IMG/VR virus record: IMGVR_UViG_3300025687_000099
Location: 1 to 42,073 of that record
Length of the DNA stretch: 42,073 bases
Strand: one strand, 5' to 3'
Source: a virus
Shown one piece after another: positions 20,807-35,163 of this stretch. Numbering within the stretch: position 1 is the stretch's first letter; every line of letters begins with the position of its first letter. A program made the position numbers and the translations under genes. The notes under the pieces are model-generated. The model searched no databases, was not told where the DNA came from, and saw only the letters and a list, made by a program, of their open reading frames with translations.

Positions 20807-20818
20807 CTTGGTTAATGA

Positions 20819-20837
20819 ATAACTCAGGTTGAGTTAT
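20819..20837. terminator. Perfect 8-bp hairpin between convergent genes
   Basis: ATAACTCA (20819-20826), loop GGT, TGAGTTAT (20830-20837). It lies between the end of the plus-strand late genes and the end of the minus-strand accessory operon. No strong T-run follows on either side. A bidirectional attenuator/terminator is the natural reading. Confidence 0.5.
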
Positions 20838-20868
20838 GAAAGCGTACATCCAATATGCAGTTCAGCGG

Positions 20869-21162: not shown

Positions 21163-21198
21163 AATGTTTGTCCTTTTTAGGTGAAAGAATGCTGGTAT

Positions 21199-21215
21199 GA
21201 CCGGCTCGTCCGGTC
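21199..21215 (-). promoter_or_regulatory. Leader hairpin, RCRAG family (copy A)
   Basis: On the minus strand: GACCGG, loop ACGAG, CCGGTC. It is about 35 nt upstream of the start at 21162. The same pentaloop type occurs in the leaders at 25026-25039, 25577-25593 and 36880-36903. Confidence 0.6.
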
Positions 21216-21222
21216 GATTAAC

Positions 21223-21402
21223 TTAATTAGGGCGCTGGTCATCAAACAACCACGCCACGAAAAGCCACACAACCACGTTTAAATCTGACATAAAAAGTCG
21301 GTTAAAACTTTCCCAGGAAAAACGAGTAGTCAGTGTAAGAACCGTACAAGAAAGGCACCCAAAGAATGCCAACCAATAATTTTTATTTCTTGCCATTTTC
21401 AT
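21223..21402 (-). CDS. Small two-helix membrane protein
   Basis: 59 residues, ATG at 21402-21400, TAA at 21225-21223. A GGGG-containing site lies about 12 nt upstream. Two hydrophobic segments (YWLAFFGCLSCTVLTL and LNVVVWLFVAWLF) flank a polar loop (TTRFSWESFNRLFMSD). The C-terminus is acidic/polar (DDQRPN). It fills what would otherwise be a gene-free gap. Function unknown; candidate exclusion or holin-type membrane protein. Confidence 0.5.
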   Translation of the reverse strand: MKMARNKNYWLAFFGCLSCTVLTLTTRFSWESFNRLFMSDLNVVVWLFVAWLFDDQRPN

Positions 21403-21484
21403 CGTTTAAAGACCCCTTTTTTGTCGCCCTAATAAGGAGTTATACGAACCCGCATAACCCGCATTTTTGTTTGTTATCCGATTG

Positions 21485-21526
21485 ACATATATGTGATGAG
21501 ACTATCGGGTTTATTCACATATATGT
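21485..21526. promoter_or_regulatory. Paired palindromic operator-like sites
   Basis: ACATATATGTGA (21485-21496) and its inverted copy TCACATATATGT (21515-21526). Each contains the palindrome ACATATATGT, with centres 32 bp apart (about three helical turns). They lie upstream of the minus-strand gene at 21402 and downstream of the one ending at 21531. Looks like a cooperative repressor site; the binding protein is unknown. Confidence 0.5.
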
Positions 21527-21530
21527 ATTA

Positions 21531-21716
21531 TTAAGCAGAACAATTGCTTAAAATATTATTACCTTTGAATCGGACCATTGCGCCTGGGTTTTTCATATAG
21601 TGATCAACAGCGCATGAAGCACACCGAGTCTTACCATCACCGTTTCCAAAAGGCTTTCCAATCGGTGGGATTATCTCCTTTTTACAGTCGTGACAAATCC
21701 ATTTTTCCTTTTCCAT
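21531..21716 (-). CDS. Small zinc-finger-like protein
   Basis: 61 residues. CHDCKKEI near the N-terminus and TRCASCAVDHYM in the middle give two CxxC pairs, suggesting one zinc site. Start ATG 21716. No further domain. One of several Cys-pair microproteins in this phage. Confidence 0.6.
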   Translation of the reverse strand: MEKEKWICHDCKKEIIPPIGKPFGNGDGKTRCASCAVDHYMKNPGAMVRFKGNNILSNCSA

Positions 21717-21743
21717 CTCAAACCCCTTTATATGTTAACAAGT

Positions 21744-21929
21744 TTAATCTTCAAAATATTTCTCGACTCTTGCTACCGGATACCCAATAGCCAGTAGCAG
21801 TGGTTTGATTATATCATCCATAAATTCAGACACGGATAACCCAATCAAATCGGTTTCAATTGTGATGGTCTTGGTTTCAGGTTCAGGCATACCCCATTGT
21901 TGCGTAAATTGTATTTTTGTTTTGTTCAT
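21744..21929 (-). CDS. Hypothetical small protein
   Basis: 61 residues (MNKTKIQFTQQWGMPEPETK, then TITIETDLIGLSVSEFMDDI). Acidic, with a helical C-terminus. The start is adjacent to the stop of the upstream gene (21930), so the two are probably co-translated. No family recognised. Confidence 0.55.
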   Translation of the reverse strand: MNKTKIQFTQQWGMPEPETKTITIETDLIGLSVSEFMDDIIKPLLLAIGYPVARVEKYFED

Positions 21930-22187
21930 TTAGAAAAGCTCCATCTGATTCGGATCGTTACGCTTCTTCTTCTGCCGTTCGCTTTCTTTTCTCATGGGCT
22001 GTTTACCGGTCATAACCCGGCAAGCTTTTCTCCACGCTTTATATCCGCTTGAAGTTTGACCGTAATACACCTTCTTACAGAAAACATCTTTGTACCCATC
22101 TCTTAGGATTTTGTTGACGGTCAGATCGTCTTTTAGGTTCACGCCTTTTAGAAGGTCATTAACTATTTCATACGCATGGGCAATCAC
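21930..22187 (-). CDS. Hypothetical protein ending in QMELF
   Basis: 85 residues, GTG start with AAGGATGG about 7 nt upstream. Basic and helical (YGQTSSGYKAWRKACRVMTG), then a Lys/Arg-rich tail and DPNQMELF. Terminal QxxLF peptides can resemble sliding-clamp-binding motifs, but this is only a resemblance. It abuts the gene at 21929. Confidence 0.55.
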   Translation of the reverse strand: MIAHAYEIVNDLLKGVNLKDDLTVNKILRDGYKDVFCKKVYYGQTSSGYKAWRKACRVMTGKQPMRKESERQKKKRNDPNQMELF

Positions 22188-22256
22188 TATTCACCATCCT
22201 TAATTTAATTTAGCCCGTAAGTTGAATTAATTGGGGTTGTTTTCATCATATTTTCA

Positions 22257-22534
22257 GAAAGTGGCCCTTTCGGTGCCAATTTTTTTGGCCGGTGGGGGCT
22301 TTTTGAGAGAAGCCCCGAAACTCTGAAAGCTAATTATACCATACTTCTTCGCCGCTTGAATCAACAATTTTAATGTCGATAACCGGACCGCCGTCCAGGC
22401 GATAAGCCGATTTTTCACGATCCAGCAACCACGCGCGAAAACGCTTGTTACCAGGCTTTTTCTGAGGCCGCTTTTTATACTCATTTCTATATTTTTACCC
22501 CTTTTTTTATGGAAAGTGGCACTCTGAGTGCCAC
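22257..22534. repeat. Two imperfect 21-bp copies flanking the region after integrase
   Basis: Read on the minus strand, GGCACTCAGAGTGCCACTTT (starting at about 22534) and GGCACCGAAAGGGCCACTTT (starting at about 22277) share 17 of 21 positions. The right copy is part of a near-perfect palindrome (22515-22535). Candidates are integrase arm or core sites; unproven. Confidence 0.45.
22330..22494 (-). other. Open frame of about 50 codons without a standard start
   Basis: In the frame ending TAG at 22332-22330 the translation has ordinary protein character (RFRAWLLDREKSAYRLDGGP, then VIDIKIVDSSGEEVWYN). Between the upstream stop (22497-22495) and this segment there is no ATG, GTG or TTG. A different frame (22254-22538, 94 codons, ATG overlapping the integrase stop) covers the same DNA but looks less protein-like. 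It could be a gene remnant, a frameshifted gene, or one started by a non-standard codon. Confidence 0.35.
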
Positions 22535-22535
22535 T
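22515..22535 (+). terminator. Perfect palindrome at the integrase stop
   Basis: AGTGGCACTC, T, GAGTGCCACT (22515-22535), overlapping the integrase stop. On the plus strand a T-rich stretch follows (catttttcacttttttt), so it could terminate rightward transcription entering the integrase gene. On the minus strand it could end or attenuate integrase mRNA. It may alternatively be a protein-binding site related to recombination. Confidence 0.5.
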
Positions 22536-23605
22536 CATTTTTCACTTTTTTTATTAATCGCATCCTGGAAAGAAATAACATCTGCTGATTCGATTTTCTG
22601 GATATCGTCAAGGACTTTTATACCCTTGGTTTTAATTGTGACCAGAGATCTTAGATATATGTCAGTTGTGGTCGCGTTCCTGTGACGTAAAATCTTCGAT
22701 AATTCGACCAAACTGAGTCGATATGATAGTAGGGCCGCGACATGGTGCCGAATGCAATGCAACGTGAAATATTTGTATTTTACCCCGGCATCTTCAGCTC
22801 TTTTGTTAATCTTTTCCATAATTTCATTAACCCACCATTGTGCCAGTTTTTTCCCTTTGTAGGACAGTACATATTCATTGTGGGTTTTATTCTTGCATCG
22901 CTCTTTTAGAATTTCATATAGTGTATCTGTCAACTCTAAGGTATCATCTTTTCTGTCACCCTGATTCCTTTTGCCGGTCCAAAGGGTGATTTCTCTCTTT
23001 TCAAGGTTAACATCTTCCCATTTTAAGTTTCGGATCTCACCAGCCCTGGCAAGTGTATTGTAAGCGATCATAATAATATCGTGCTCAAGTGGGTCTGCAA
23101 AGGCTTTAGCTGTCTCAATATCTTCTTTCGGCGGGACATATCTTTTAAATGGCCTCTCTTTGAATTTGGTTATTTTCTTTGCGAAATTTTCAGTGACTAA
23201 CCCACGATCCATCGCATAATAAAAGAAGTTTCTCAGTTCTCTTTTGTAGCGGTTGGCCGTTTTGCCCTTTGGTATGGAGTTGAGGTATTGCTCAATCATT
23301 AAGACAGAGATTTCGTCCATATATGGATCATACCCCCAAAACTCAAGGGCTTTGTCCGTAGCGAGGGCCTTATTGTTGCATGTTTTGGGCTTCCATCTCT
23401 TTAGACAATTTATTAACCAAAGATCGGCCACGTCTCCCCATGTCATAGTCTTGCTTTCCAGTGGAGGCTTTTTTAAATGTTCTGACGTTCGAAGTTCCCA
23501 CGCCTTTGCCTCGTTCCAAGTCCTGAACCCGGTCTTTGTCTTCTGGGGAAACCCTGTCAGTCTCACCCGGCCCTTGTATGTCCCGTCCTTTTCCTTCGTC
23601 GGCAT
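22535..23605 (-). CDS. int: Tyrosine-type site-specific integrase
   Basis: 356 residues. It catalyses integration and excision of the phage genome. N-terminal arm-binding domain (about 1-45: GTYKGRVRLTGFPQKTKTGF), core-binding domain (about 55-145) and catalytic domain. Catalytic residues visible: Arg187 (LARAGEIR), His283-x-x-Arg286 (LHCIRHH), His308 (ILRHRN) and nucleophile Tyr317 (TDIYLRS). The first 236 nt overlap the C-terminal frame of the upstream excisionase-like gene. Start ATG 23605 has GGGAG about 10 nt upstream. The gene shows this phage can integrate. Confidence 0.93.
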   Translation of the reverse strand: MPTKEKDGTYKGRVRLTGFPQKTKTGFRTWNEAKAWELRTSEHLKKPPLESKTMTWGDVADLWLINCLKRWKPKTCNNKALATDKALEFWGYDPYMDEISVLMIEQYLNSIPKGKTANRYKRELRNFFYYAMDRGLVTENFAKKITKFKERPFKRYVPPKEDIETAKAFADPLEHDIIMIAYNTLARAGEIRNLKWEDVNLEKREITLWTGKRNQGDRKDDTLELTDTLYEILKERCKNKTHNEYVLSYKGKKLAQWWVNEIMEKINKRAEDAGVKYKYFTLHCIRHHVAALLSYRLSLVELSKILRHRNATTTDIYLRSLVTIKTKGIKVLDDIQKIESADVISFQDAINKKSEK

Positions 23606-23771
23606 TTTCTAAAAACTCCCATACTGAGTTGATATTAAAGCGGATACCGCCAAAATTAGAATGAGGCAGCGTTTCCCACATCTTTACGCCGTCCTTTTTC
23701 TTATATAAAAAGGCTTCGCTTATGCCAAGGTAACTGGCTAATCCTTTTATGTCAACAATTGGCCCGGTCAA
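23370..23771 (-). CDS. Excisionase-like small helix-turn-helix protein, overlapping integrase
   Basis: 133 codons from TTG 23771. Residues 1-50 (VDIKGLASYLGISEAFLYKK, then GGIRFNINSVWEFLE) match the winged-helix pattern of AlpA/excisionase-type DNA-binding proteins. From about residue 56 onward the frame overlaps the integrase gene and is charged, low in hydrophobics and probably disordered. The leader contains a 20-bp sequence also found before the gene at 39242, which supports the TTG start. Probable role: directing integrase towards excision. Confidence 0.65.
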   Translation of the reverse strand: MTGPIVDIKGLASYLGISEAFLYKKKDGVKMWETLPHSNFGGIRFNINSVWEFLENADEGKGRDIQGPGETDRVSPEDKDRVQDLERGKGVGTSNVRTFKKASTGKQDYDMGRRGRSLVNKLSKEMEAQNMQQ

Positions 23772-23797
23772 TGATTACACTTTTCCTTTGATATTCG

Positions 23798-24079
23798 TTA
23801 ATCCAAACAAGCCAATGCTTGGTCTAATGCAGCATCAAAATCATAATGATAAATGCTGTAAAAACCGATTGGGGTATCAGGATAAAAATGGATGTTTACA
23901 ATTGTATTTGTCTCAATCATGATTTTCTTAATATCCTCGTCAATGGATGGTGGACACTCCATACAAGATATTTCCTCAAGGCTTTCGGCAGCACTCTGAT
24001 AATAATCCCTATGGCTGTTTACGGTTATATGCACTCCACACTTACACCGATCTAAAAGCTGTTTGAATTTAACGTCCAT
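23798..24079 (-). CDS. Conserved phage hypothetical protein
   Basis: 93 residues from ATG 24079 (AAAAAGGTG upstream; a GTG at 24088 is an alternative). The sequence has KCGVHITVNSHRDYYQSA, a Cys-containing ECPPSIDED, and HFYPDTPIGFYSIYHYDFDA. I associate this pattern with short hypothetical proteins in phages and prophages of Proteobacteria. No function known. Confidence 0.65.
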   Translation of the reverse strand: MDVKFKQLLDRCKCGVHITVNSHRDYYQSAAESLEEISCMECPPSIDEDIKKIMIETNTIVNIHFYPDTPIGFYSIYHYDFDAALDQALACLD

Positions 24080-24143
24080 GTCATTCACCTTTTTATATTG
24101 TTAAACCTCCCGGCTGTGTCATGTATTTTCCGGGGGTTACTTG

Positions 24144-24168
24144 AGTTGTAAAGTATTTCTTTACAACT
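24144..24168. terminator. Perfect 10-bp stem after the gene at 24184
   Basis: AGTTGTAAAG (24144-24153), loop TATTT, CTTTACAACT (24159-24168). It is just downstream of the minus-strand gene that ends at 24184. No T-run on the minus strand; likely an attenuator or mRNA 3'-end stabiliser in the accessory operon. A second weaker CCCGG/CCGGG stem follows (24107-24135) before the next gene. Confidence 0.5.
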
Positions 24169-24183
24169 GGCCTTTATCGGTGG

Positions 24184-24432
24184 TTAAATATCCTCAAGCT
24201 TGCCCTGGACATAATCAATCAGCACAGAGTCATCTATTTTAGCAGCCCAAAACTTATAGAGTAAATCTGCCATCTCATCACAATTGTTCAGGTTCCGGCA
24301 GATCTCCATAGCGGTGTGCTTATTGTAAATCGTGACATATTCCGAAGCATCACGCAGGATTACACAAGGATCACACCCACAGGTTTCAGGGTGGCATTTG
24401 CATCTGTTATTACGGACTTCATATTTACTCAT
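24184..24432 (-). CDS. Cys-rich conserved phage protein
   Basis: 82 residues. N-terminal RCKCHPETCGCDPCVILRD (residues about 10-28) has six cysteines and is a recognisable start of small phage hypotheticals. The rest is helical (EICRNLNNCDEMADLLYKFW). It may bind metal. No function known. Confidence 0.62.
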   Translation of the reverse strand: MSKYEVRNNRCKCHPETCGCDPCVILRDASEYVTIYNKHTAMEICRNLNNCDEMADLLYKFWAAKIDDSVLIDYVQGKLEDI

Positions 24433-24445
24433 ATATGACTCTCCT

Positions 24446-24751
24446 TTATTTGGTGTACTCTTGAATGGGCGTTGATGAATGTTTCATAACTTCAATGCCC
24501 ATAATTACCCATCCATCCAGCAGGCCATAAATAGGCCCATGCAAAATATAATGGACTTCGCATTCTATTTCTCTGCCGGTGTAAACCAGCTTGCATCCGT
24601 TTCTCATTTCAACACCGGTGTGTTGAGTTTCCTGCAAAAGAAGCGTGTCGGATTCTTTGTAATCACGGTCATTTTTTCTAAGCTCAAAATCTTTTAAACC
24701 GTTATAGACATGGCTGAAAACCATAGGGTCGGTTTTTAATCTGTGAATCAT
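24446..24751 (-). CDS. DUF3850 family protein (ASCH-like fold)
   Basis: 101 residues. The opening HRLKTDPMVFSHVYNGLKDF, then ELRKNDRDYKESDTLLLQE, and the closing YILHGPIYGLLDGWVIMGIE are the conserved blocks of DUF3850, an ASCH/PUA-like domain thought to bind RNA or modified nucleotides. Whole-length match to the family. It has a long structured leader (24774-24846). Regulatory target unknown. Confidence 0.82.
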   Translation of the reverse strand: MIHRLKTDPMVFSHVYNGLKDFELRKNDRDYKESDTLLLQETQHTGVEMRNGCKLVYTGREIECEVHYILHGPIYGLLDGWVIMGIEVMKHSSTPIQEYTK

Positions 24752-24773
24752 TTAGAACACTCCTTGTCTGGTA

Positions 24774-24846
24774 GCGGGGTCCATGTCCTGGCACTCTCGA
24801 TCCGACAATCCAGGCATTTAACAGGCCGTGAACGAGCGGACCCCGC
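24774..24846 (-). ncRNA. Structured leader upstream of the DUF3850 gene
   Basis: GCGGGGTCC (24774-24782) pairs with GGACCCCGC (24838-24846), nine perfect base pairs. An inner CCTGG/CCAGG stem is possible. The element lies in the 5' leader of the minus-strand gene starting at 24751. Looks like an RNA control element; no known riboswitch recognised. Confidence 0.4.
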
Positions 24847-24859
24847 GATATTTTATGTA

Positions 24860-24991
24860 TTATTTAGCTGATTTCTCAACGCGCAGCACCCGGCGTTCTA
24901 AGTCTGCCAGGCGTTGTGCCATCAGCTCGCGTTTCTGTAATTCTGTTTTCTCGTTTGTATACTGTTTTGGTTTAGATCTTTGGGGTTTCAT
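24860..24991 (-). CDS. 43-residue basic coiled-coil protein
   Basis: Start chosen at ATG 24991, which has AAGGAGG at ideal spacing; a longer frame from 25045 would cover the leader hairpin. The product is Lys/Arg/Glu-rich (QKRELMAQRLADLERRVLRV), a short coiled coil. No function known. Confidence 0.55.
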   Translation of the reverse strand: MKPQRSKPKQYTNEKTELQKRELMAQRLADLERRVLRVEKSAK

Positions 24992-25025
24992 TTTTGTCCT
25001 CCTTGTTAAGGTAATGACGTACATA

Positions 25026-25039
25026 ACCGGCTTGTCCGT
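25026..25039 (-). promoter_or_regulatory. Leader hairpin, RCRAG family (copy B)
   Basis: Minus strand: CACGG, loop ACAAG, CCGGTT; only three to four base pairs here, but the loop and flanks match copies A and C. It lies about 35 nt before the start at 24991. Confidence 0.45.
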
Positions 25040-25052
25040 GTTCATTGGCTTA

Positions 25053-25259
25053 TTATTTTTCGACTAAACCATTTGCAGTCATTACATATTCTTTTGGGTC
25101 TTCAGAATTGATATATGTAACATCTTTGACGATTTCACCAATTGGAATAGCAGACGGGTGTATGTCGAAGCTTTCACCGTCCCACCTATCGGCCCAATAG
25201 ACTAAAGTGTCAATGTTTCCTGGGACTAATTGCGATCTAAAATACTCAAAACGTTCCAT
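25053..25259 (-). CDS. Hypothetical small protein
   Basis: 68 residues from ATG 25259, preceded by GGAGG. Sequence MERFEYFRSQLVPGNIDTLV, then YWADRWDGESFDIHPSAIPI. Acidic, possibly a small beta/alpha fold. No family recognised. Preceded upstream by the Cys-rich gene at 25292. Confidence 0.55.
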   Translation of the reverse strand: MERFEYFRSQLVPGNIDTLVYWADRWDGESFDIHPSAIPIGEIVKDVTYINSEDPKEYVMTANGLVEK

Positions 25260-25291
25260 TGTTAATTCCTCCATCTAAGAATTGCCGGGGA

Positions 25292-25555
25292 TCACTGGCA
25301 CAAAGCCCTTCCACAATACTGACAATATTTTATTCCGTGACCACCACATATACATCTTTTAAATTTAGTGGGCTTTGTGCCCACGTGCATTTGAGTATTG
25401 GACGGCCCTGGAAGAGGGCACCATTGCGGGATTTCTTTGAAAATATTTACATCTATTCTCATACGTGCAGATTTGGTACAAAAGTGATTTCTGCAATCAA
25501 TTGTCCCGCAATTTCCACACTTGTAGCAATTTGTAATCTCTATTAATTTTTTCAT
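25292..25555 (-). CDS. Cys-rich zinc-binding-like protein, paralogue of 26042
   Basis: 87 residues from ATG 25555. N-terminal CYKCGNCGTIDCRNHFC is rich in Cys/His; the C-terminus has CICGGHGIKYCQYCGRALCQ. Two zinc sites are plausible. The segment PSNTQMHVGTKP and the ending CGRALCQ are shared with the 87-residue protein at 26042. No known function. Confidence 0.62.
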   Translation of the reverse strand: MKKLIEITNCYKCGNCGTIDCRNHFCTKSARMRIDVNIFKEIPQWCPLPGPSNTQMHVGTKPTKFKRCICGGHGIKYCQYCGRALCQ

Positions 25556-25576
25556 AAGTCCGTCCAATGTAATGAT

Positions 25577-25593
25577 CACCGGCTCGTCCGGTG
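25577..25593 (-). promoter_or_regulatory. Leader hairpin, RCRAG family (copy C)
   Basis: Minus strand: CACCGG, loop ACGAG, CCGGTG, six perfect base pairs, about 22 nt upstream of ATG 25555. Same loop as copy A. Confidence 0.6.
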
Positions 25594-25620
25594 CATTATT
25601 TTATTAATAAAAATGCGTGT

Positions 25621-25809
25621 TCAGCAAACCACAACTTCGTTTGTACAACATGGACATATAATTAAACCACCATCGTTAAACTGGTGCTTGTGAATTCTGA
25701 ACCCATCGTGTTCTGGTGTAATTGTGAATTTTTCACCATTATGTTCGAACGAAATCCGGTCGGTTTTGTTAGATATATTTTTATCGTTTCCAATTCTGAC
25801 AATCTCCAT
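25621..25809 (-). CDS. Hypothetical small protein with C-terminal Cys pairs
   Basis: 62 residues from ATG 25809 (GGAGG upstream). Beta-rich N-terminal part (MEIVRIGNDKNISNKTDRIS, FTITPEHDGFRIHKHQF) and ending LIICPCCTNEVVVC, a possible zinc knuckle. No family recognised. A structured leader precedes it. Confidence 0.55.
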   Translation of the reverse strand: MEIVRIGNDKNISNKTDRISFEHNGEKFTITPEHDGFRIHKHQFNDGGLIICPCCTNEVVVC

Positions 25810-25849
25810 ATTTACCTCCAAGCATTTTTGTTAATATTGTGATAACCGG

Positions 25850-25928
25850 TGCGGGGCATGTAGGTGGTATTTTAGGGCACCCTGTACAGAGGTTCCACCC
25901 GCCGCCTACGAGGACTACACACCCCGCA
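25850..25928 (-). ncRNA. Nested-stem structured leader
   Basis: Outer stem TGCGGGG (25850-25856) with CCCCGCA (25922-25928); inner stem GTAGG (25860-25864) with CCTAC (25905-25909); apical hairpin AGGG, CA, CCCT (25874-25883). It precedes the minus-strand gene at 25809. The same DNA also contains a 52-codon minus-strand frame (ATG at 25939, MNTVAGCVVLVGGG...), so coding cannot be ruled out. Confidence 0.42.
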
Positions 25929-26041
25929 ACCGTGTTCATTATTTTATTGGCCCCTACACCGGATTTAGTGCTTCTTCTCTACCCCGGTACGGCTTAGCAT
26001 AATGTTATCTCCAGCACTCCACCGGGGGCCAATGCCGGGGA

Positions 26042-26305
26042 TCACTGGCTCAAAGCCCTTCCACACCATTTGCAGAAGGGAGGCCAGGGATAATTTTTCT
26101 TTTCTGTTTCGCATTCTCCGCATGGCTTTGTGTCCATGTGCATTCGAGTATTGGACGGCCTTTTCAAGATGGCAAGGGCCGACTCTAAAACCTCTATTCT
26201 GTATTTCAGTAAAAAACAGGCTGAATCATCCCAAGATTTTAATGCCTTGCGATAGTCGGCCTTCCACGTTGCCAATAGATGATCTATCTCTTCAATTTTA
26301 TTCAT
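26042..26305 (-). CDS. Helical protein with C-terminal zinc knuckle, paralogue of 25292
   Basis: 87 residues from ATG 26305, the same length as its paralogue. The N-terminal half differs: helical (IEEIDHLLATWKADYRKALK). The C-terminal half is shared: PSNTRMHMDTKP, then CGECETEKK and CKWCGRALSQ. This looks like a duplicated zinc-binding tail with exchanged N-terminal modules. Function unknown. Confidence 0.62.
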   Translation of the reverse strand: MNKIEEIDHLLATWKADYRKALKSWDDSACFLLKYRIEVLESALAILKRPSNTRMHMDTKPCGECETEKKNYPWPPFCKWCGRALSQ

Positions 26306-26323
26306 AGTCCGCTCCAATAAGGA

Positions 26324-26370
26324 GTTATGCGGATTGCGCGTGCGCGCGTTCCTATATATGGGCCGCATAA
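26324..26370 (-). promoter_or_regulatory. Long leader stem before gene 26042
   Basis: TTATGCGG and CCGCATAA form an eight-base-pair stem enclosing a GCGC-rich inner hairpin (GCGC, GTGC, GCGC). It sits in the 5' leader of the minus-strand gene starting at 26305. The adjacent leader sequence (26307-26331) is also found at 21423-21446. Confidence 0.5.
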
Positions 26371-26399
26371 TTTCCTGAATTGATATTCATTTCTGTACA

Positions 26400-26762
26400 T
26401 CATATTAATGAATCAACTCGTTCGCCTTTTGCACCGATTCTGCCGCAACATTCACAAGGGTGTGATTGATGTGCAGCACACCCAGGATGACCGCAGGGTT
26501 TACCATCTTCAAATACGCGTTCTTCATAAGGACCACCGGCCATCATCGCATCCAAAAATGTCACCATCTTTTGCCCATCAGTCCACTGATCCCAACCAAC
26601 CTTGTTCCTGATTTCGTTGGCCTCAACCATGTCGATATTATCCATATGTCTTGCAAGGGATTGTCGATATGATTCTTCGGTTTCACCTTCATTGGGTTGC
26701 CGAAACCCTCTTACTTTTGCCCTGTCTTTTAGGCTCTGAAAATCTGGGAAATTCATTGGCAT
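26400..26762 (-). CDS. Conserved phage hypothetical with C-terminal Cys/His cluster
   Basis: 120 residues. N-terminal FPDFQSLKDRAKVRGFRQPN, then GETEESYRQSLARHMDNIDM and EIRNKVGWDQWTDGQKMVTF, is a pattern I know from short phage proteins. The tail CGHPGCAAHQSHPCECCGRI has five Cys and two His, a likely zinc site. No function known. First large gene of the accessory run after 26794. Confidence 0.62.
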   Translation of the reverse strand: MPMNFPDFQSLKDRAKVRGFRQPNEGETEESYRQSLARHMDNIDMVEANEIRNKVGWDQWTDGQKMVTFLDAMMAGGPYEERVFEDGKPCGHPGCAAHQSHPCECCGRIGAKGERVDSLI

Positions 26763-26793
26763 GATATTACTCCTTATCTTTTATAAATTTGAC

Positions 26794-27027
26794 TCAACCT
26801 TGACCACACGCCGTTTCATTATTCCCGGTCTTATCGCGGTCCTTATAAAACATGCTTTCTGGGTTGGTTAGGGCAAAGATCCAACACAACGCTTCTTTTG
26901 TGCAAGAGTGGGCCATGTCTGCCGGGTTTTGAATTGAATAATATTTGTCGTGCGATGTTGACGCAGAAAAGCCAGAGAGATTCGATAACCTCTTTGGCTT
27001 GTTAGCTGATACAGATTTTGTAGTCAT
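26794..27027 (-). CDS. Hypothetical protein, first gene of the accessory operon
   Basis: 77 residues, ATG 27027 with AAGGGG 5-9 nt upstream. Contains LSGFSASTSHDKYYSIQNPA, then DMAHSCTKEALCWIFALTNP. No named family. A sigma70-like promoter (27079-27107) and the 30-bp repeat lie directly upstream, so it is probably the promoter-proximal gene of the leftward accessory operon. Confidence 0.6.
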   Translation of the reverse strand: MTTKSVSANKPKRLSNLSGFSASTSHDKYYSIQNPADMAHSCTKEALCWIFALTNPESMFYKDRDKTGNNETACGQG

Positions 27028-27041
27028 TTGGACCCCTTACG

Positions 27042-27071
27042 AGGTCCGGTGTCACGATTGGGTAGCGCGAC
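27042..27071. repeat. 30-bp direct repeat, left copy
   Basis: Identical over 30 bases, same orientation, to 30247-30276; core TCACGATTGGGTAGCGCGAC. It lies between the lipoprotein gene and the accessory operon. A GGACC/GGTCC stem (27030-27047) overlaps its edge. Confidence 0.92.
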
Positions 27072-27078
27072 TATGGTA

Positions 27079-27107
27079 AATTTATCTAAATTTTATAATT
27101 TTGTCAA
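27079..27107 (-). promoter_or_regulatory. Leftward sigma70-type promoter
   Basis: Minus strand TTGACA (27107-27102), 17-bp spacer, TAAATT (27084-27079, four of six consensus). Predicted transcription start about 27072, exactly at the edge of the 30-bp repeat. It would drive the accessory operon from 26794 leftwards. Confidence 0.55.
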
Positions 27108-27110
27108 GCG

Positions 27111-27290
27111 CTAATTTAAGATATTTACGATATCGTACACAATGACTCCGATATCCATCAGGTCAACCGTGGTTTCCTTTATTTTTTCGGTCTGTTGGTC
27201 CTGTTTAGCTTGCTGCTCGACGGTCATTGGCTGTTTTGCAGCGCATGACATAAGCGCCAGGAATGCTATTATTACGATAAGTTTTTTCAT
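27111..27290 (-). CDS. Small lipoprotein
   Basis: 59 residues, ATG at 27290-27288. MKKLIVIIAFLALMSCAAKQ is a lipoprotein signal with lipobox LMSC (Cys16) and +2 Ala, predicting outer-membrane anchoring in a Gram-negative host. The mature part is about 44 residues, Gln/Lys/Glu-rich then hydrophobic (DLMDIGVIVYDIVNILN). It lies 9 nt after the PEP-CTERM gene; last in the repressor operon. Prophage lipoproteins often block superinfection at the surface; that role is inferred here. Confidence 0.62.
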   Translation of the reverse strand: MKKLIVIIAFLALMSCAAKQPMTVEQQAKQDQQTEKIKETTVDLMDIGVIVYDIVNILN

Positions 27291-27299
27291 AGCAGTATT

Positions 27300-28052
27300 T
27301 TACCTTTTCCGCTGTATTTTTGCAAGCCCCAACAACCCAACACCAAACAGGATAAGCGTTGACGGTTCTGGAACAGGGTTGAGTTCGTCAGGCTCACCAG
27401 GGCGAATATATGTCAGTGACCGGACACCCCAGGCCCATTGTGACGATACGCCCCGGTAGGGTTGCCACATAATGCTTTCGGACTCGCCCCATCCCGTATA
27501 AAACCCGTAGAGCATATTTGCCAGATCGTACCCTATAATTGGTACGGAATGGTTCGGGCCGCTCGTACCAGATGCCACATACCCTACCAATGGCCGACCG
27601 GCATCAATTTCATCGACGATATACTGAAAATCTGTGCTTGTATTATATGATACCCAATCCGTGTACCCGCGCCATGCGGCGTAATTTCGCGCACCGTCAT
27701 CTATGCGGGACACATATGTTGACCCCATTGAGAGCGAACCCTCAGAAGTGCCCATGAAATCCGCTATAGACGTATCAGGCGGTGGTGTGCCGGTTCTGTC
27801 CGGCTTCGGGTCATAAAAATAGTTATGTTCCGGGCTGGATATGTGGTCTTGTACGTTGGCGGTTAGAAAAACATCAGAACCGGTCGCATCAAACAGATTG
27901 TCATACCCGTTCATATCCCAATAACCCAAAACCATACCTACGGCTGTAGGGGAGCATCCGTGATACCAACTATACGCTGGTACATTATCTATTGTGACGG
28001 GTGATGCGTATGCGGTGCTGCAAAACAATAATATAATGATTATCTTTTTCAT
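27300..28052 (-). CDS. Secreted C39-like cysteine-peptidase-fold protein with PEP-CTERM sorting signal
   Basis: 250 residues from ATG 28052 (GGGAGG upstream). Signal peptide MKKIIIILLFCSTAYA. The body begins YSWYHGCSPTAVGMVLGYWD, with the expected nucleophile Cys, and later NHSVPIIGYD with the catalytic-type His, the pattern of C39-like papain-fold proteins. The C-terminus is a full tripartite PEP-CTERM signal: VPEPS, a hydrophobic helix (TLILFGVGLLGLAK) and a basic end (RKR). That signal is processed by an exosortase, a host enzyme linked to exopolysaccharide. I know of few phage examples. Part of the five-gene operon with the repressor. Confidence 0.85.
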   Translation of the reverse strand: MKKIIIILLFCSTAYASPVTIDNVPAYSWYHGCSPTAVGMVLGYWDMNGYDNLFDATGSDVFLTANVQDHISSPEHNYFYDPKPDRTGTPPPDTSIADFMGTSEGSLSMGSTYVSRIDDGARNYAAWRGYTDWVSYNTSTDFQYIVDEIDAGRPLVGYVASGTSGPNHSVPIIGYDLANMLYGFYTGWGESESIMWQPYRGVSSQWAWGVRSLTYIRPGEPDELNPVPEPSTLILFGVGLLGLAKIQRKR

Positions 28053-28063
28053 GCCGCCTCCCG

Positions 28064-28282
28064 TCACCGATCAATGGATAATGGACACAATTGATATCCT
28101 GCAACTGTGATAGCAGCAGATCCGCTTGGACAGTCGTAAATACATATCTTGTTCATTCCATCGACATATTCACTCTTCAAAAAACACATCACTGCGTAGG
28201 CTGGTGTGGTTGTTTTAACGTGCAGAAAAATAGCGAACAATAGTACCATAAAGCAAAACAAAGAAATGATTATTTTTTTCAT
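28064..28282 (-). CDS. Small secreted Cys-containing protein
   Basis: 72 residues. Long signal sequence (MKKIIISLFCFMVLLFAIFL, then HVKTTTPAYA), mature part about 42 residues with four Cys: CFLKSEYVDGMNKICIYDC and LCPLSI. Two disulfides are likely in the periplasm or outside. GGGAGGC site upstream. Lies 12 nt after the PAS gene and 11 nt before the PEP-CTERM gene. Similar short proteins occur in other phages as I recall, without known role. Confidence 0.62.
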   Translation of the reverse strand: MKKIIISLFCFMVLLFAIFLHVKTTTPAYAVMCFLKSEYVDGMNKICIYDCPSGSAAITVAGYQLCPLSIDR

Positions 28283-28294
28283 GTTGCCTCCCTG

Positions 28295-28966
28295 TTAACC
28301 TGTCTTTAATTTTAGTTCCTGCTGCGTGATACGTCTTACGTTGAAAACGATATTTTTTCCACCTGCGGGACTGATATAACCCACCTTGTGCCTGGTTTCG
28401 TCATAAAGAGAGAATTTGTACTCAATGTCCACCGGCTCATGAGTTTCAAGCACCTTTTTAACTGCACGTTTGACAGCGCGAATATATTCGGGCCAGATAG
28501 TATCATATATATTGACGCCGATTACATTACCGACTGCGCGGTCCGGAAATGCGACAGCCAGAATATAGCCGGATTCAGATACAATGAACGAATTTTGACT
28601 GCTACTCACTACCTCCCTATCCGGTAATTGCATTGGGTTGGTTCTTGGTCTGATGATTGCTTTCCGCCAAAACATGAAAATATACCCACCATACGAGTTT
28701 TTTATGATGTGAAGTTCAGCCGCTGGAACCTCTGTGTTTTTATCAATCCTGTAACTAGACATATTGAGAAAAACCGGTTTGGAACGTGCGATATGCGGCA
28801 GTACAGAATTGATCAAGCGCGAGTTTTTAGGGCCTAAAAACGGGCCAAAATGTGCTCCTAATGGAATCCGGGGGTCTTGAGATGATATGGCCCTGCACTG
28901 GCTGTCAGTCACTATTATATTGTCCGGTTCCCGCCTCTCCCACTCCCCCGGAGGCGGGCGTTTCAT
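28295..28966 (-). CDS. PAS-domain protein coupled to the repressor gene
   Basis: 223 residues, no signal peptide. Residues about 120-215 look like a PAS sensor domain: NSFIVSESGYILAVAFPDRA, GVNIYDTIWPEYIRAVKRAV and a closing GKNIVFNVRRIT strand. The first 110 residues may be a second, weaker PAS-like unit. The start ATG overlaps the repressor stop (ATGA), so the two are made together. No kinase, cyclase or DNA-binding part is fused. A cytosolic sensor of a small molecule or redox state that modulates the repressor is a reasonable inference. Confidence 0.6.
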   Translation of the reverse strand: MKRPPPGEWERREPDNIIVTDSQCRAISSQDPRIPLGAHFGPFLGPKNSRLINSVLPHIARSKPVFLNMSSYRIDKNTEVPAAELHIIKNSYGGYIFMFWRKAIIRPRTNPMQLPDREVVSSSQNSFIVSESGYILAVAFPDRAVGNVIGVNIYDTIWPEYIRAVKRAVKKVLETHEPVDIEYKFSLYDETRHKVGYISPAGGKNIVFNVRRITQQELKLKTG

Positions 28967-29418
28967 TCCCCCGTTGTGCCGTTCTTTTGGCTACCTCTTT
29001 CTCCCTTTATTTCTTTGATTTTCTGTCTGATAGCTGAAACTATATCACCAAAAGCTATCGGGTCTAATTCCTCTAATTCCAACAGATGTTCATTTGCGAT
29101 TCTTGCAAGATTTTTATTTTTGAATTTTTGAATTATTTGGTAGTGAAGCCAAACTTCAGGATCTTTAATTTTGACTATCGATTCGTCGTCTTGTTTTATG
29201 GATGCAACAAACTCGGAAACTGTTTCAAACCCACAAGCTTTTGCAACTGTTTTTTGTGTCTGCCGCCCTGCATTTTTAGCTCTATTAATGATTTGATAAA
29301 TGTGATTAGGAGCACATTTATATTTACCAGCCAAAACCTTCACGCTCATTTTGTCGGCGTAAAAAGAGAGAGCCTTTAAAAAATCATCGTATTCTTTGTC
29401 GTAAACAACCATAAACAT
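28963..29418 (-). CDS. Phage repressor (CI-type helix-turn-helix, no cleavage domain)
   Basis: 151 residues. Residues about 12-60 form a helix-turn-helix (MSVKVLAGKYKCAPNHIYQI, then INRAKNAGRQTQKTVAKACG). The C-terminal part is helical and charged and shows no S24/LexA autoproteolysis site, so classical RecA-driven cleavage is unlikely. It is transcribed away from the Cro-like gene across an operator-rich gap, the usual repressor position. Translationally coupled to the PAS gene downstream. Alternative start ATG 29412 is possible. Confidence 0.75.
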   Translation of the reverse strand: MFMVVYDKEYDDFLKALSFYADKMSVKVLAGKYKCAPNHIYQIINRAKNAGRQTQKTVAKACGFETVSEFVASIKQDDESIVKIKDPEVWLHYQIIQKFKNKNLARIANEHLLELEELDPIAFGDIVSAIRQKIKEIKGERGSQKNGTTGE

Positions 29419-29420
29419 AA

Positions 29421-29496
29421 AGTTAACCTATTGGTTTAAAAAAACAATTCACAAAAGTGAACTAAAGTGAATTTTTTTGTTGACATCAGTTAACTG
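29421..29496. promoter_or_regulatory. Operator cluster between repressor and Cro-like genes
   Basis: Elements seen: TTCAC, AAAA, GTGAA (29448-29461) and overlapping AATTCAC/GTGAATT (29446-29473); GTTAAC (29422-29427); and the perfect palindrome CAGTTAACTG (29487-29496) inside the rightward promoter spacer. The GTTAAC core appears twice and the TTCAC core three times including inverted copies. Two operator types, possibly one for each regulator. Confidence 0.6.
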
Positions 29497-29508
29497 TTTA
29501 GTTACAAT
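29480..29508 (+). promoter_or_regulatory. Rightward early promoter
   Basis: TTGACA (29480-29485), 17-bp spacer, TACAAT (29503-29508). The -35 is a full consensus match, the -10 five of six. Predicted start of transcription is 29514-29516, at or within a base or two of the Cro-like ATG (29516), so the mRNA would be leaderless. The palindrome in the spacer makes it repressible. Confidence 0.78.
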
Positions 29509-29515
29509 GCGAACC

Positions 29516-29710
29516 ATGAAGATCACACAAACATATTTAGCAGCTTGCCTTGGCGTTTCCAAGCCATATGTGAACAGATTAGTTCACGCTAAACAACGGC
29601 CTAACTGGAAAAGGGCTAAACAATTAGCCCGGATCACAAACACAAGTCCCGAACTATGGCTTGAAGGTTCAGCGGTCGAAATTCAACAAGTCTTGGGGGT
29701 AGCGGCATGA
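29516..29710 (+). CDS. Cro-like small DNA-binding protein
   Basis: 64 residues from ATG 29516. An upstream frame start at 29477 is ruled out because it lies upstream of the promoter -35. Sequence MKITQTYLAACLGVSKPYVN, then KQRPNWKRAKQLARITNTSP, is a complete helix-turn-helix of the Cro/YdaS type. Divergent from the repressor, directly under the rightward promoter with no leader. Expected role: lytic switch. Confidence 0.78.
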   Translation: MKITQTYLAACLGVSKPYVNRLVHAKQRPNWKRAKQLARITNTSPELWLEGSAVEIQQVLGVAA

Positions 29711-29805
29711 GTTTATTAATCTCACCATTTAAATTTATTACATCGTTCATGCTGCTGCCTCCTTTATTTAACCATAACAATAAAAAATCAAACAGGGAAT
29801 TATAA
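29707..29805 (+). CDS. Possible 32-residue hydrophobic microprotein
   Basis: ATG 29707 overlaps the Cro-like stop (ATGA); stop TAA 29803-29805. Product MSLLISPFKFITSFMLLPPL then a polar tail. The ATGA overlap suggests coupled translation. On the opposite strand a 38-codon frame (29750 to 29634) has a very strong AAAGGAGG site, so the segment may instead encode, or also encode, an antisense peptide. Confidence 0.35.
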   Translation: MSLLISPFKFITSFMLLPPLFNHNNKKSNREL

Positions 29806-29807
29806 AG

Positions 29808-30242
29808 ATGTGCGAAATATCTAACACACTCCACGAGATGCCAAAAAAACACGGCCTTAGTGTTGAATGGATAGCAGACCATATCGGATGTAACCCGACA
29901 TCATTGCACCGGCAGTTGAACCCGCATGACCATTACCCCTTTCCACTAAAAAAACTAATCCCCTTCATGAAAGCCTGTAGCGATGATTTATCGGTACTTG
30001 ACTTGATTGAATCAAGGCTTGGCAGGGTAGCGTTCAAGCTACCGCAAACAGACCAGAAATTAGTAACAAAAGATGTTGTAGAAATGATCCGTCAATTCTC
30101 CGATTCAATTCGGCTGATGGCAGATATTATTGAAGACAACAAAATAGACAAACAAGAAGACGTGCAACTCGGCAAGCACCTTATCAAGCTGAATCAGCAA
30201 ATTAACGAGATGCAAGCCCGGTTAATGAATAAATATCAATAA
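29808..30242 (+). CDS. CII / CP76-like regulatory protein
   Basis: 144 residues. GLSVEWIADHIGCNPTSLHR, then QLNPHDHYPFPLKKLIPFMK and SVLDLIESRLGRVAFKLP, is the conserved body of the phage CII-like/CP76 regulator family. C-terminal about 60 residues are helical, fit for oligomerisation. In temperate phages these proteins activate or modulate the establishment of lysogeny. Third gene of the rightward early transcript. Confidence 0.8.
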   Translation: MCEISNTLHEMPKKHGLSVEWIADHIGCNPTSLHRQLNPHDHYPFPLKKLIPFMKACSDDLSVLDLIESRLGRVAFKLPQTDQKLVTKDVVEMIRQFSDSIRLMADIIEDNKIDKQEDVQLGKHLIKLNQQINEMQARLMNKYQ

Positions 30243-30246
30243 AGGA

Positions 30247-30286
30247 AGGTCCGGTGTCACGATTGGGTAGCGCGACACTGGACCGA
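30247..30286 (+). repeat. 30-bp direct repeat, right copy, within a long hairpin
   Basis: 30247-30276 is identical to 27042-27071. Here it extends into an 11-bp stem: GGTCCGGTGTC (30248-30258) with GACACTGGACC (30274-30284), one G-T wobble, loop holding ACGATTGGGTAGCGC. It follows the CII-like gene stop by 4 nt and precedes the membrane protein gene at 30300. Confidence 0.85.
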
Positions 30287-30299
30287 AAGGAGAGACACA

Positions 30300-30479
30300 A
30301 TGGCAGACACATTAGACAAGGCACTTACGGTAACAATGATGGCGGTTTGTTTTTTTATATCGTTTTCTGCACCGTATTTTTTTGATTATCCATATCAGGC
30401 CAGAACCCTTGGTTTCGCTGGCGCTTTCGGTTTTTTATACTTCGGCCTGAAATTTTGGATCAAGGCCGCGAGGGGGTAG
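30300..30479 (+). CDS. Small membrane protein
   Basis: 59 residues, ATG 30300 with AAAGGAG upstream. Two hydrophobic helices (VTMMAVCFFISFSAPYFF and LGFAGAFGFLYFGLKFWI) separated by DYPYQART; basic C-terminus. Early expressed. Function unknown; possibly host takeover or exclusion. Confidence 0.55.
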   Translation: MADTLDKALTVTMMAVCFFISFSAPYFFDYPYQARTLGFAGAFGFLYFGLKFWIKAARG

Positions 30480-30481
30480 GT

Positions 30482-30760
30482 ATGTACGGTCACACAAGTA
30501 TCAGACGGTTAATTTCAGACGCATTAGCCGAATACAGGGACAATCTCAATATTTGTTTAACGATTGATGGTATGAGAGTAGACCCGGAATCCAACACAAA
30601 CGAGGATATCAGGGAAGATAATACAATCAGTATAAATATGGATTTTGGTTTAAGGGATATCATTTTTCGCCATCCTGAAGAGTTTGTGCCTGAATTACAC
30701 GATCCCCTGTTTACAGATGAAGAAAAAAAGCTTTTAGCAGAAAGGAAGGTGGCAGCATGA
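30482..30760 (+). CDS. Hypothetical early protein
   Basis: 92 residues from ATG 30482. Contains NICLTIDGMRVDPESN and an acidic C-terminal region (DEEKKLLAERK). The motif TIxGMRVD recurs in the next gene (VTIAGMRVDIDN), hinting at a shared small domain. ATGA overlap with the next gene. No family named. Confidence 0.6.
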   Translation: MYGHTSIRRLISDALAEYRDNLNICLTIDGMRVDPESNTNEDIREDNTISINMDFGLRDIIFRHPEEFVPELHDPLFTDEEKKLLAERKVAA

Positions 30761-30972
30761 CACTTAAAGAAATCGAAAAAAACATTCAGGAACTCGCTGC
30801 TGAAATGGCAATGAGCATCATTAAGCATATGGGCGTAACCGTTACAATAGCCGGTATGCGGGTTGATATAGACAATATCGAAAAAGAGATTGACGGTATC
30901 AAGGTCGAGATCAACGGCCCTGTATATGCTGATGGGGTTGAGTATGACCTTGTTGAAAGGGAGGTAGCATGA
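30757..30972 (+). CDS. Hypothetical early protein sharing TIxGMRVD
   Basis: 71 residues, start overlapping the previous stop. N-terminal helix (LKEIEKNIQELAAEMAMSII), then GVTVTIAGMRVDIDN and an acidic beta part. Overlaps the next gene by 4 nt. Function unknown. Confidence 0.58.
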   Translation: MTLKEIEKNIQELAAEMAMSIIKHMGVTVTIAGMRVDIDNIEKEIDGIKVEINGPVYADGVEYDLVEREVA

Positions 30973-31910
30973 ATACAGAAACAGCATTAGTGCCTAAAGA
31001 TATTAAACCAATTGTTCTGTTTTCAGAAAACGGTCTCGATCCTGTTTTGGCAGAGATTGGGAAAAAAATATCCGCCTTTAAGCCGGATGTTTCAACACTA
31101 AACGGTCGTAAGGAAATAGCCTCGTTTGCTTATAAAATAGCCCAATCCAAGACATTTATCGACAACGCCGGTAAAGAGTTGGTCGCAGAGCAAAAGGCTA
31201 GAATAAAGCTTGTTGATGCCGAGCGCAAACGGGCAAGGGATTGGCTTGACGAAAAAAAGGCTGAAGTCCGTAAACCCCTGACTGAATACGAAGAGGCTGA
31301 AAAGCTCCGTATCGAAGAAGAGGCGTTGCGCATTGAGATTGAAACAGCACACGAAGAAGCGTTGAGAGAAAACGAGTTGGTTGACCGGCAACGCGAAATT
31401 GAGCGCAAAGAGGCTGAACTCAGACGGCAGGAAGAAGAACGTAGGCAAAAAGAAGAGGCTGAACGCGCTGAACGTGAAAGAATCGAGCGCGAAGAACGGT
31501 TGAAAAAAGAAGCGGCTGAACGCGCGAAACGAGAAGCAGATGAAAAGATCAGACATGAGCGTGAAGAAAAAGAACGGATTGAGCGCGAAGCCAAAGAAGC
31601 CGCAGAAAAAGCAGAACGCGATAGGATAGCCGCAGAAGAACGGGCCAGGATCGAAAAAGAGTTGGCGGTCAAACGCGCGAGGGAAGAAGCGGCGGCGGTT
31701 GCAAAAGCTGAACGTGAGGCAGAAGAAAAGCGACAACGCGAGTTGCAGGCAGAGGCGGACAGAAAAGCGGCGAATAGAAAACATCAAGCTTCCGTGAATA
31801 ATAAAATCCTTCAGGCCCTTAACATTATCGGTGTTAATGAAGACACCGGGAAAAAATTAATAACTGAAATCGTGCACGGCAACATTCCTTTTGTTTCTAT
31901 CAACTACTAA
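30969..31910 (+). CDS. Long coiled-coil phage protein (DUF1351-like)
   Basis: 313 residues. The N-terminal globular part (about 1-85: LNGRKEIASFAYKIAQSKTF, IDNAGKELVAEQKARIKLVD) matches small phage proteins found in recombination modules. Residues about 100-275 are an uninterrupted Glu/Arg/Lys/Ala coiled coil. The C-terminal domain (about 276-313) is compact (NNKILQALNIIGVNEDTGKK). It sits directly upstream of the YqaJ exonuclease pair. Probably accessory to recombination; mechanism unknown. Confidence 0.7.
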   Translation: MNTETALVPKDIKPIVLFSENGLDPVLAEIGKKISAFKPDVSTLNGRKEIASFAYKIAQSKTFIDNAGKELVAEQKARIKLVDAERKRARDWLDEKKAEVRKPLTEYEEAEKLRIEEEALRIEIETAHEEALRENELVDRQREIERKEAELRRQEEERRQKEEAERAERERIEREERLKKEAAERAKREADEKIRHEREEKERIEREAKEAAEKAERDRIAAEERARIEKELAVKRAREEAAAVAKAEREAEEKRQRELQAEADRKAANRKHQASVNNKILQALNIIGVNEDTGKKLITEIVHGNIPFVSINY

Positions 31911-34444: not shown

Positions 34445-35163
34445 TGTCAGCACAAAAGGAGAATGGCTATACCGCGATAGCCAATGAACTTATGGAAGCA
34501 TTAGCATCATATTCAATTCCAGCAACACAAATGCAATGTCTTTTTGTTGTTCTGAGGGATACTTACGGTTGGAATAGAAAGACAAGCTCTATATCGCTTA
34601 CAAGGTTCGCTGATCTTACAGGATTAGACAGAAGGCATGTCCATAGAGCATTAACCGAGCTATCCAAAAAGAACATCATAAAAGTCGAAAAACGTAGTGC
34701 CAAAGATGGAACAAAATTAACCTCTATGTACCGCCTAAACAAGATATACACATCTTGGGTTTTTGTTCCAAAGAAGGCACGGGGTAGTGCCATTAATGGA
34801 ACAAAACCTAGTACCAAAGATGGTACTGATAAAAACAATATAAAACAAAAAGAAAAAATATATAAAAAAGAAAGTTTGGGGATGTATGAAGTCGCTGTGA
34901 AAATCCCAGAGAACTATTCCATACAAAAAGAGCATTTAGAATATGCTTTGTCAAAAGGTTTGTCTAATTCACAGGCTAAAGATCAATTTGAGGCCTTCAA
35001 ACTCCATTTCCAGAAAACAGGTAAAAAATATCAATCTTGGTATGCAACATATCAAACATGGGTGCGGAATGCGATTAAGCGAGGTTACATAAAGATTATC
35101 CAGCTTCCAAAGCCACAATCTCAAGAAGACATTGATAAAGAACTTGCGGAGAAATTAGCATGA
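34444..35163 (+). CDS. Replication initiator, phage O-like
   Basis: 239 residues. N-terminal winged-helix (about 10-85: MQCLFVVLRDTYGWNRKTSS, LTGLDRRHVHRALTELSKKN) as in phage replication protein O. The C-terminal region (about 140-239) is helical and could load helicase (AKDQFEAFKLHFQKTGKKYQ). The origin iterons lie inside the gene, exactly as in lambda O. Overlaps the DnaB gene by 4 nt. Confidence 0.8.
   Translation: MSAQKENGYTAIANELMEALASYSIPATQMQCLFVVLRDTYGWNRKTSSISLTRFADLTGLDRRHVHRALTELSKKNIIKVEKRSAKDGTKLTSMYRLNKIYTSWVFVPKKARGSAINGTKPSTKDGTDKNNIKQKEKIYKKESLGMYEVAVKIPENYSIQKEHLEYALSKGLSNSQAKDQFEAFKLHFQKTGKKYQSWYATYQTWVRNAIKRGYIKIIQLPKPQSQEDIDKELAEKLA
34695..34875 (+). other. Predicted replication origin: four iterons plus AT-rich stretch
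   Basis: Iterons with consensus TAGTGCCAaagATGGAACA: 34695-34716, 34761-34780 (inverted), 34785-34806 and 34809-34834 (diverged, TAGTACCAAAGATGGTACTG). An A-rich stretch follows (34829-34875) that would melt easily. Location inside the O-like gene mirrors lambdoid ori. Confidence 0.7.

Follow-up and report, generated by a model that had tools for sequence, protein, structure and literature searches.

A predicted repressor operon of an uncultivated temperate phage encodes putative exported proteins, one with a PEP-CTERM tag

Introduction

Why should the operon that likely holds the repressor of a phage also encode three predicted exported proteins, one of which carries a sorting tag for a bacterial machinery that the phage does not encode? 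This question is raised by positions 27111 to 29418 of the IMG/VR record IMGVR_UViG_3300025687_000099, a stretch of 42,073 nucleotides (nt) analysed at its full length and called here the window. As judged from its genes, the record is that of an uncultivated temperate tailed phage. An earlier note, made from the letters of the DNA, had described at this place a repressor operon with a PAS sensor and three exported proteins, and had proposed that they form an undescribed lysogenic-conversion or surface-exclusion system. Cargo genes lying downstream of a repressor gene in one operon are known from the rexAB genes of lambda and from the cI-bstA pair of BTP1 (PMC7067206). In phage TP-J34, with the gene order int-ltp-orf3-repressor, the lipoprotein Ltp is transcribed in the prophage and blocks DNA injection (PMC3952083). 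The PEP-CTERM/EpsH (exosortase) system has been proposed to sort tagged proteins to the cell surface (PMC1569441), and according to two papers, flocs and biofilms of other bacteria form with the participation of PEP-CTERM proteins (PMC9850573, PMC12188702). Here we ask which parts of the locus are borne out by family searches, structural modelling and sequence statistics, and what the operon most plausibly does.

Results

Five tightly packed genes end in a tagged protein and a predicted lipoprotein

The five open reading frames (ORFs) were found as the earlier note had placed them, all on the minus strand between 27111 and 29418 and tightly packed, with junctions of -4, +12, +11 and +9 nt. Counted from the promoter side, they encode a helix-turn-helix (HTH) protein, a PAS-like protein, a small secreted protein, a C39-like protein with a PEP-CTERM tag and a lipoprotein. 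A terminator scan found no minus-strand terminator in the intergenic stretches of the operon. Its sole minus-strand terminator-like site was weak and lay within the C39 gene (27950-27937); overall, the scan yielded 10 sites of this kind, about as many as chance would give (9.0). Directly beyond the lipoprotein gene, a minus-strand promoter-like site (27079-27107, TTGACA-17-TAAATT, 10/12 consensus positions) probably marks where the operon ends distally and the next leftward unit begins.

The fourth gene (27300-28052, minus strand) encodes a protein of 250 residues, in which a predicted N-terminal signal peptide (MKKIIIILLFCSTAYA, called by inspection only) is followed by a C39-like papain-fold domain and a C-terminal PEP-CTERM of the form VPEPS-helix-QRKR. 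The earlier note had recognised both the domain and the tag, and both exceeded the curated cut-offs: PF07589 was matched with E 1.5e-7 (31.6 bits for a cut-off of 20.7), TIGR02595 with 24.3 bits (cut-off 16), and Peptidase_C39_2 (PF13529) with E 8.5e-12 (46.3 bits, cut-off 24). The end of the tail, VPEPSTLILFGVGLLGLAKIQRKR directly before the stop codon, consists of a hydrophobic helix and then a basic cluster; the helix was modelled at residues 230-249 with low confidence. The ATG at 28052 is preceded by a strong Shine-Dalgarno sequence (GGGAGGCGG), and for this reason the GTG at 28067, which the ORF finder had listed 15 bases upstream, is an unlikely start.

A model built from five sequences, with a mean predicted local distance difference test (pLDDT) score of 59, gave a papain-like fold for residues 14-220. 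It matched the C39-like peptidase 3erv (Z 12.2, root-mean-square deviation 3.0 over 152 residues), staphopain (Z 11.9), SpeB (Z 11.8) and also interpain. Cys33 and His168 were invariant across the five divergent sequences, and in the model a helix begins at Cys33, while His168 belongs to a strand. No exosortase was found to be encoded by the phage itself. A host exosortase would therefore be required if the tag works, as the earlier note had argued.

Among the relatives of the C39-like protein (L022 and L023 are two of the sequences concerned), a large plasmid-encoded RTX protein of Salipiger shared 47% identity in its C-terminal domain, and a protein from a Sedimentisphaerales metagenome-assembled genome (MAG; L023:442-1224) had the identical architecture, with 40-45% identity over the full length. 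The Sedimentisphaerales MAG also encodes two exosortases scoring over the cut-off and further PEP-CTERM proteins. A distant relative was present in a Bacteroidota MAG, and 7 of the 392 Planctomycetota genomes gave matches. Since its nearest relatives are bacterial, the gene looks bacterial in origin.

The tag is rare among sampled phages

No relative of the C39-like protein was present in 50,697 phage records. Exact peptide patterns for the C39-PEP-CTERM, PAS-like, repressor and small proteins retrieved no close relatives from IMG/VR, and a profile search of IMG/VR with two C39 domains gave no match. A DNA pattern for the core VPxYxWxxGCxPT hit three IMG/VR contigs (L041-L043), which encode secreted C39-like proteins devoid of PEP-CTERM. 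We also used the 33 C-terminal residues of the tag as a probe. Against plasmids it retrieved annotated PEP-CTERM proteins on about a dozen records, which shows that the probe works; its sole match in the 50,697 phage records, in Gordonia phage GMA2, had an E value of 2, was internal to a gene and was discarded as due to chance. Thus, the tag was found in no other virus among the collections searched. The phage collection is skewed to hosts lacking exosortase, so that this is rarity among sampled phages. The C39 gene was likewise absent from 19 records sharing the terminase, many of which are fragments and two of which are pieces of the same phage that stop short of this region; no other fetched contig covered a homologous immunity region. 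The open-access papers that we searched contained no description of a phage-encoded PEP-CTERM protein.

The other two predicted exported proteins

Signal-peptide and lipobox calls were made by inspection, and they agree with the prediction of two other exported proteins in the earlier note. The small secreted protein (28064-28282, minus strand, 72 residues) has a predicted signal peptide and a mature part with four Cys. Its match to phrog_4641 (E 5.8e-4) makes it a remote member of this family, and relatives occur in Vibrio lentus phages and the Salmonella Seunavirus group, where the homologous gene adjoins genes for a lipoprotein and a membrane protein. By these matches, it is a recurrent phage-exported protein that is not tied to lysogeny. 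We also noted that Vibrio phage 1.190.O contains an unannotated small exported protein (L039:2932-3147) related to it. The predicted lipoprotein (27111-27290, minus strand, 59 residues) has the lipobox LMSC, with Ala at position +2. Its weak PHROG matches, among them those to the superinfection exclusion protein Cor (phrog_1119, E 0.0034, residues 1-37) and to an Rz-like spanin (E 0.003), are confined to the lipoprotein-signal end, have similar scores and do not decide the family.

Coding support was assessed with a codon score trained on the other genes of this phage, for which antisense control ORFs had a mean of -0.124, a standard deviation of 0.070 and a maximum of 0.013. The HTH gene (0.112) and the lipoprotein gene (0.108) scored above all controls, and the C39 gene (0.004) and the PAS-like gene (-0.007) near the top of the control range. 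The small secreted ORF (-0.131) could not be distinguished from the controls, yet it has the remote phage relatives mentioned above.

The operon faces an ordinary temperate control region

The first gene of the operon (28963-29418, minus strand, 151 residues) encodes the presumed phage repressor and diverges from two rightward genes. One encodes a Cro-like HTH protein (29507-29710, plus strand; HTH_3, E 5.4e-7), and the other a CII-like activator of the Phage_CP76 type (29808-30242, plus strand; PF06892, E 2.3e-12; phrog_101, E 1.5e-14). In a sequence scan, the divergent control region between the two transcription units (29419-29515) contained a strong rightward promoter-like site, TTGACA-17-TACAAT at 29480-29508, with 11 of 12 consensus positions, and an operator-like inverted repeat (29438-29452 and 29467-29481) with 13 of 15 positions paired, a value that 8 of 300 shuffled sequences and 4 of 433 phage windows also attained. 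To judge from the promoter position, the Cro-like gene probably starts at the ATG at 29507 or 29516 and not at the listed TTG at 29477. The promoter-like site overlaps the listed start, and the ATG at 29516 could give a leaderless message.

By its sequence, this is an ordinary temperate control region, and the HTH protein on its other side is therefore likely the phage repressor. The label of the earlier note thus stands as far as position goes; it rests mainly on position because the HTH scores themselves remained below threshold (see Discussion). Pfam detected no LexA-type (S24) or other autocleavage domain in the HTH protein, and induction therefore probably needs another input.

The nearest candidate for such an input, independent of the SOS response, would be the product of the second gene (28295-28966, minus strand), a cytosolic protein of 223 residues whose gene overlaps the stop of the repressor gene by 4 nt. 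The earlier note had called it a PAS sensor. Its match to PAS_3 was below threshold, and we term it PAS-like rather than filing it as a PAS protein. In a single-sequence model of low confidence (mean pLDDT 33), the C-terminal half had the order strand-strand-helix-strands, which would fit a PAS domain. No output domain was found in it, nor any relative in phages, plasmids or IMG/VR. The idea that its two halves form a tandem repeat was dropped, the score being reached by 124 of 500 shuffles.

The immunity module is bracketed by a 35-nt direct repeat, with a left copy at 27042-27076 and a right copy at 30247-30281 (both plus strand, 33 of 35 positions identical); a 19-nt core such as they share is expected 0.01 times by chance. 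The right copy is part of a strong hairpin (-22.7 kcal/mol, z -4.1) between the CII-like gene and the next gene (gene 30300). The pair could be protein sites, RNA contacts or borders of module exchange. The left copy falls within the leader of the leftward unit that follows the operon, so that transcripts running in opposite directions would share complementary stretches of some 30 nt.

The record is a nearly complete phage genome

In the 42,073-base record, the portal gene begins close to the left end, and the terminase gene is truncated at the right end. The two ends are joined by contig L002, which stems from a different data set: it matches the last 1,957 bases of the record with 98.8% identity and the first 4,612 with 99.98%, and between the two it has 118 bases that are absent from the record. 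The record therefore represents nearly all of a phage genome of about 42.2 kb, in circularly permuted form. Another contig (L020) matched positions 34966-41030 with 99.6% identity, and at least three data sets contain pieces of the same phage.

Markers of a temperate tailed phage include terminase, portal, scaffold, major head protein, DnaB, a replication initiator, a RecE-like exonuclease, a methyltransferase and a tyrosine integrase (22535-23605, minus strand; PF00589, E 2.8e-19; phrog_1, E 7e-47). The phage collection held no close relative of the whole phage, and a search for a host attachment site in the form of a tRNA or tRNA end found none. Clues to the host were scattered: DnaB and the integrase had matches over Firmicutes and others with 24-36% identity, and the single-stranded DNA-binding protein had matches with 42-44% identity in Gammaproteobacteria and Collimonas plasmids. 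We did not adopt Planctomycetota as the host on the strength of the C39 gene relative; the genomes of this group contained only distant terminases (best identities about 30-38%). A defence-system library gave no match to the phage, and Rfam none in the region 20700-31000.

Several other features of the window may be mentioned. The late region encodes a protein of 895 residues (15844-18531) with a sub-threshold match to a PcRGLX-like (rhamnogalacturonan lyase-like) domain (E 0.0017), possibly a polysaccharide-active tail protein. A DUF3850 protein (24446-24751; PF12961, E 2e-23) is encoded among the leftward small genes. Two small genes with Cys pairs and CxxCGRAL endings (25283-25579 and 26033-26368) share stretches of 33 and 37 nt that are 92-97% identical, and appear from this likeness to stem from a recent duplication. 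Short dispersed repeats, direct or inverted, lie beside small genes (21197-21225 and 25575-25603; 21425-21446 and 26310-26331; 23774-23803 and 39214-39243).

Discussion

We somewhat favour the view that the five genes form a lysogeny (repressor) operon to which the temperate phage has added lysogenic-conversion cargo that changes the lysogen's envelope. Transcription from the promoter of the HTH repressor would then continue, in the lysogen, through the PAS-like gene and the genes of all three exported proteins. Of these, the C39-like protein would cross the inner membrane by means of its signal peptide and be retained there by its C-terminal helix, until a host exosortase takes it over via the PEP-CTERM tag and brings it to the cell exterior with the exopolysaccharide layer. 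The destination of the lipoprotein would be the outer membrane; the small Cys-containing protein would remain in the periplasm or outside. Jointly, the exported proteins would alter the envelope of the lysogen, most plausibly so that related phages infect it less or not at all; a change in aggregation comes second. A function in biofilms or surface exclusion, as suggested by the earlier note, would fit these steps. The PAS-like protein, whose gene is coupled to that of the repressor by the 4-nt overlap, would most plausibly tune a repressor that does not cleave itself.

Several observations weigh against this view. No strong promoter for the repressor operon is apparent in the sequence, the best relaxed candidate having 8 of 12 consensus positions. 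The HTH protein is below the cut-off in every Pfam model (HTH_28, E 0.0012; Mor, E 0.0023; HTH_23, E 0.0031), and PAS_3 was matched with E 0.056 by the whole PAS-like protein and with E 0.022 by its C-terminal half, at best with 15.4 bits for a cut-off of 25.6. In the C39-like protein, as read from the alignment, the position of the oxyanion Gln is a Tyr in all five sequences, and the third catalytic position (Asn/Asp) is a Thr here and an Asp in two relatives; its protease activity is therefore uncertain. Finally, the best relatives of the small secreted protein belong to a protein family centred on Seunavirus, a group of virulent-type Salmonella phages, which is not a lysogeny setting, so that this protein need not be a lysogenic-conversion factor.

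The last point bears on an explanation that we consider unlikely, namely that the exported genes are mainly on during infection, for instance in a leftward burst that CII drives from a promoter close to the beginning of its own gene, and take effect on the envelope early, by blocking superinfection or protecting the membrane, in lytic and lysogenic infections alike. The occurrence of the small protein's family in Vibrio phages and, beside a lipoprotein and a membrane protein, in Seunavirus would agree with this, as would the CII-like gene itself and a promoter-like site with 9 of 12 positions that faces left at the CII start (29844-29816). Sites of this quality are, however, at chance level (26 found, 20.4 expected), and maintenance transcription would cross the same genes unless a terminator stood between, and none was seen. 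A quite unlikely explanation is that the true point of the operon is a PAS-like sensor of the repressor, which would replace DNA damage by a metabolic or redox signal for induction and make the exported genes unrelated passengers. The 4-nt overlap of the two genes and the repressor's lack of an S24 or other autocleavage domain are consistent with this, and there are precedents: in the lysogeny module of TP-J34, the comparable slot is filled by a second gene, for a putative metalloproteinase (PMC3952083), and VqmA of vibriophage VP882 is a known PAS-containing phage regulator that governs induction (PMC8284805). The sub-threshold PAS match, the poor model, the failure to find a relative in phages, plasmids or IMG/VR and the lack of likeness between the two halves beyond chance argue in the other direction.

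That the phage recently took up the C39-PEP-CTERM gene from bacteria, as a passenger with no working role, appears improbable to us. Its nearest relatives are indeed bacterial, and no other phage searched carries it; but the frame is intact, has its own strong Shine-Dalgarno sequence and all the sorting features, and is in tight register with its neighbours. Moreover, the nearest relatives are only 40-50% identical, and a recent acquisition from any source sampled is therefore not indicated. Most speculatively, the operon might be a self-contained phage signalling circuit by which lysogens read how dense their own biofilm is or in what state its matrix is. The signal precursor would then be the small secreted Cys-containing protein, processed by the exosortase-displayed C39-type protease, and the PAS-like protein would sense the product, or a linked metabolite, and act on the non-cleavable repressor. 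A milder form would combine a PAS-controlled, SOS-independent repressor switch with a matrix-displayed exclusion protein. We regard this idea as highly improbable.

If the operon is indeed lysogeny cargo, its layout is familiar. As with lambda rexAB and BTP1 bstA, the cargo lies directly behind the repressor on the same strand, opposite Cro and CII, with a predicted readout from the repressor promoter; the difference is that it includes three proteins predicted to be exported, and family searches gave no sequence relation of this cargo to Rex or BstA. With TP-J34 and TP-778 the phage shares an HTH-only repressor, a second small cytosolic gene, a lipoprotein gene and an integrase, all on one strand facing cro. 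The cytosolic protein is PAS-like here but has a metalloproteinase motif there, additional secreted and PEP-CTERM proteins are present here, and the signals are of the Gram-negative type; the likeness is one of layout. VqmA of VP882, a PAS-type sensor tied to the lysis-lysogeny switch, would be comparable to the PAS-like protein. However, VqmA contains a DNA-binding domain and works by way of the antirepressor Qtip, whereas the protein described here has no output domain and its PAS-like match is below threshold.

The tagged protein itself has a predicted signal peptide and the PEP motif, helix and basic tail of the substrates of the bacterial PEP-CTERM/EpsH system, but it is encoded by a phage with no exosortase of its own and as a single copy, whereas there are usually several in each tag-bearing genome. 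Its Sedimentisphaerales counterpart, with the same Peptidase C39-like and PEP-CTERM architecture, comes from a bacterium whose genome encodes many PEP-CTERM proteins (L036-L038), and the fetched stretch had no phage context. To speak of an undescribed system, as the earlier note did, was therefore an overstatement: the repressor slot and the logic of cargo behind it are already well known, and it is the cargo itself, rare in the phages searched, that is new.

If the lysogen expresses these genes, the phage would use the exosortase/PEP-CTERM route, whose substrates are tied to matrix, floc and biofilm, for a surface protein of its own, and the dormant phage may thus remodel the surface of its host. 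This would pair a repressor lacking autocleavage with a candidate sensor protein. It would also connect lysogeny in environmental bacteria with surface change at the level of the matrix, and open a testable way into the effects of prophages on biofilms.

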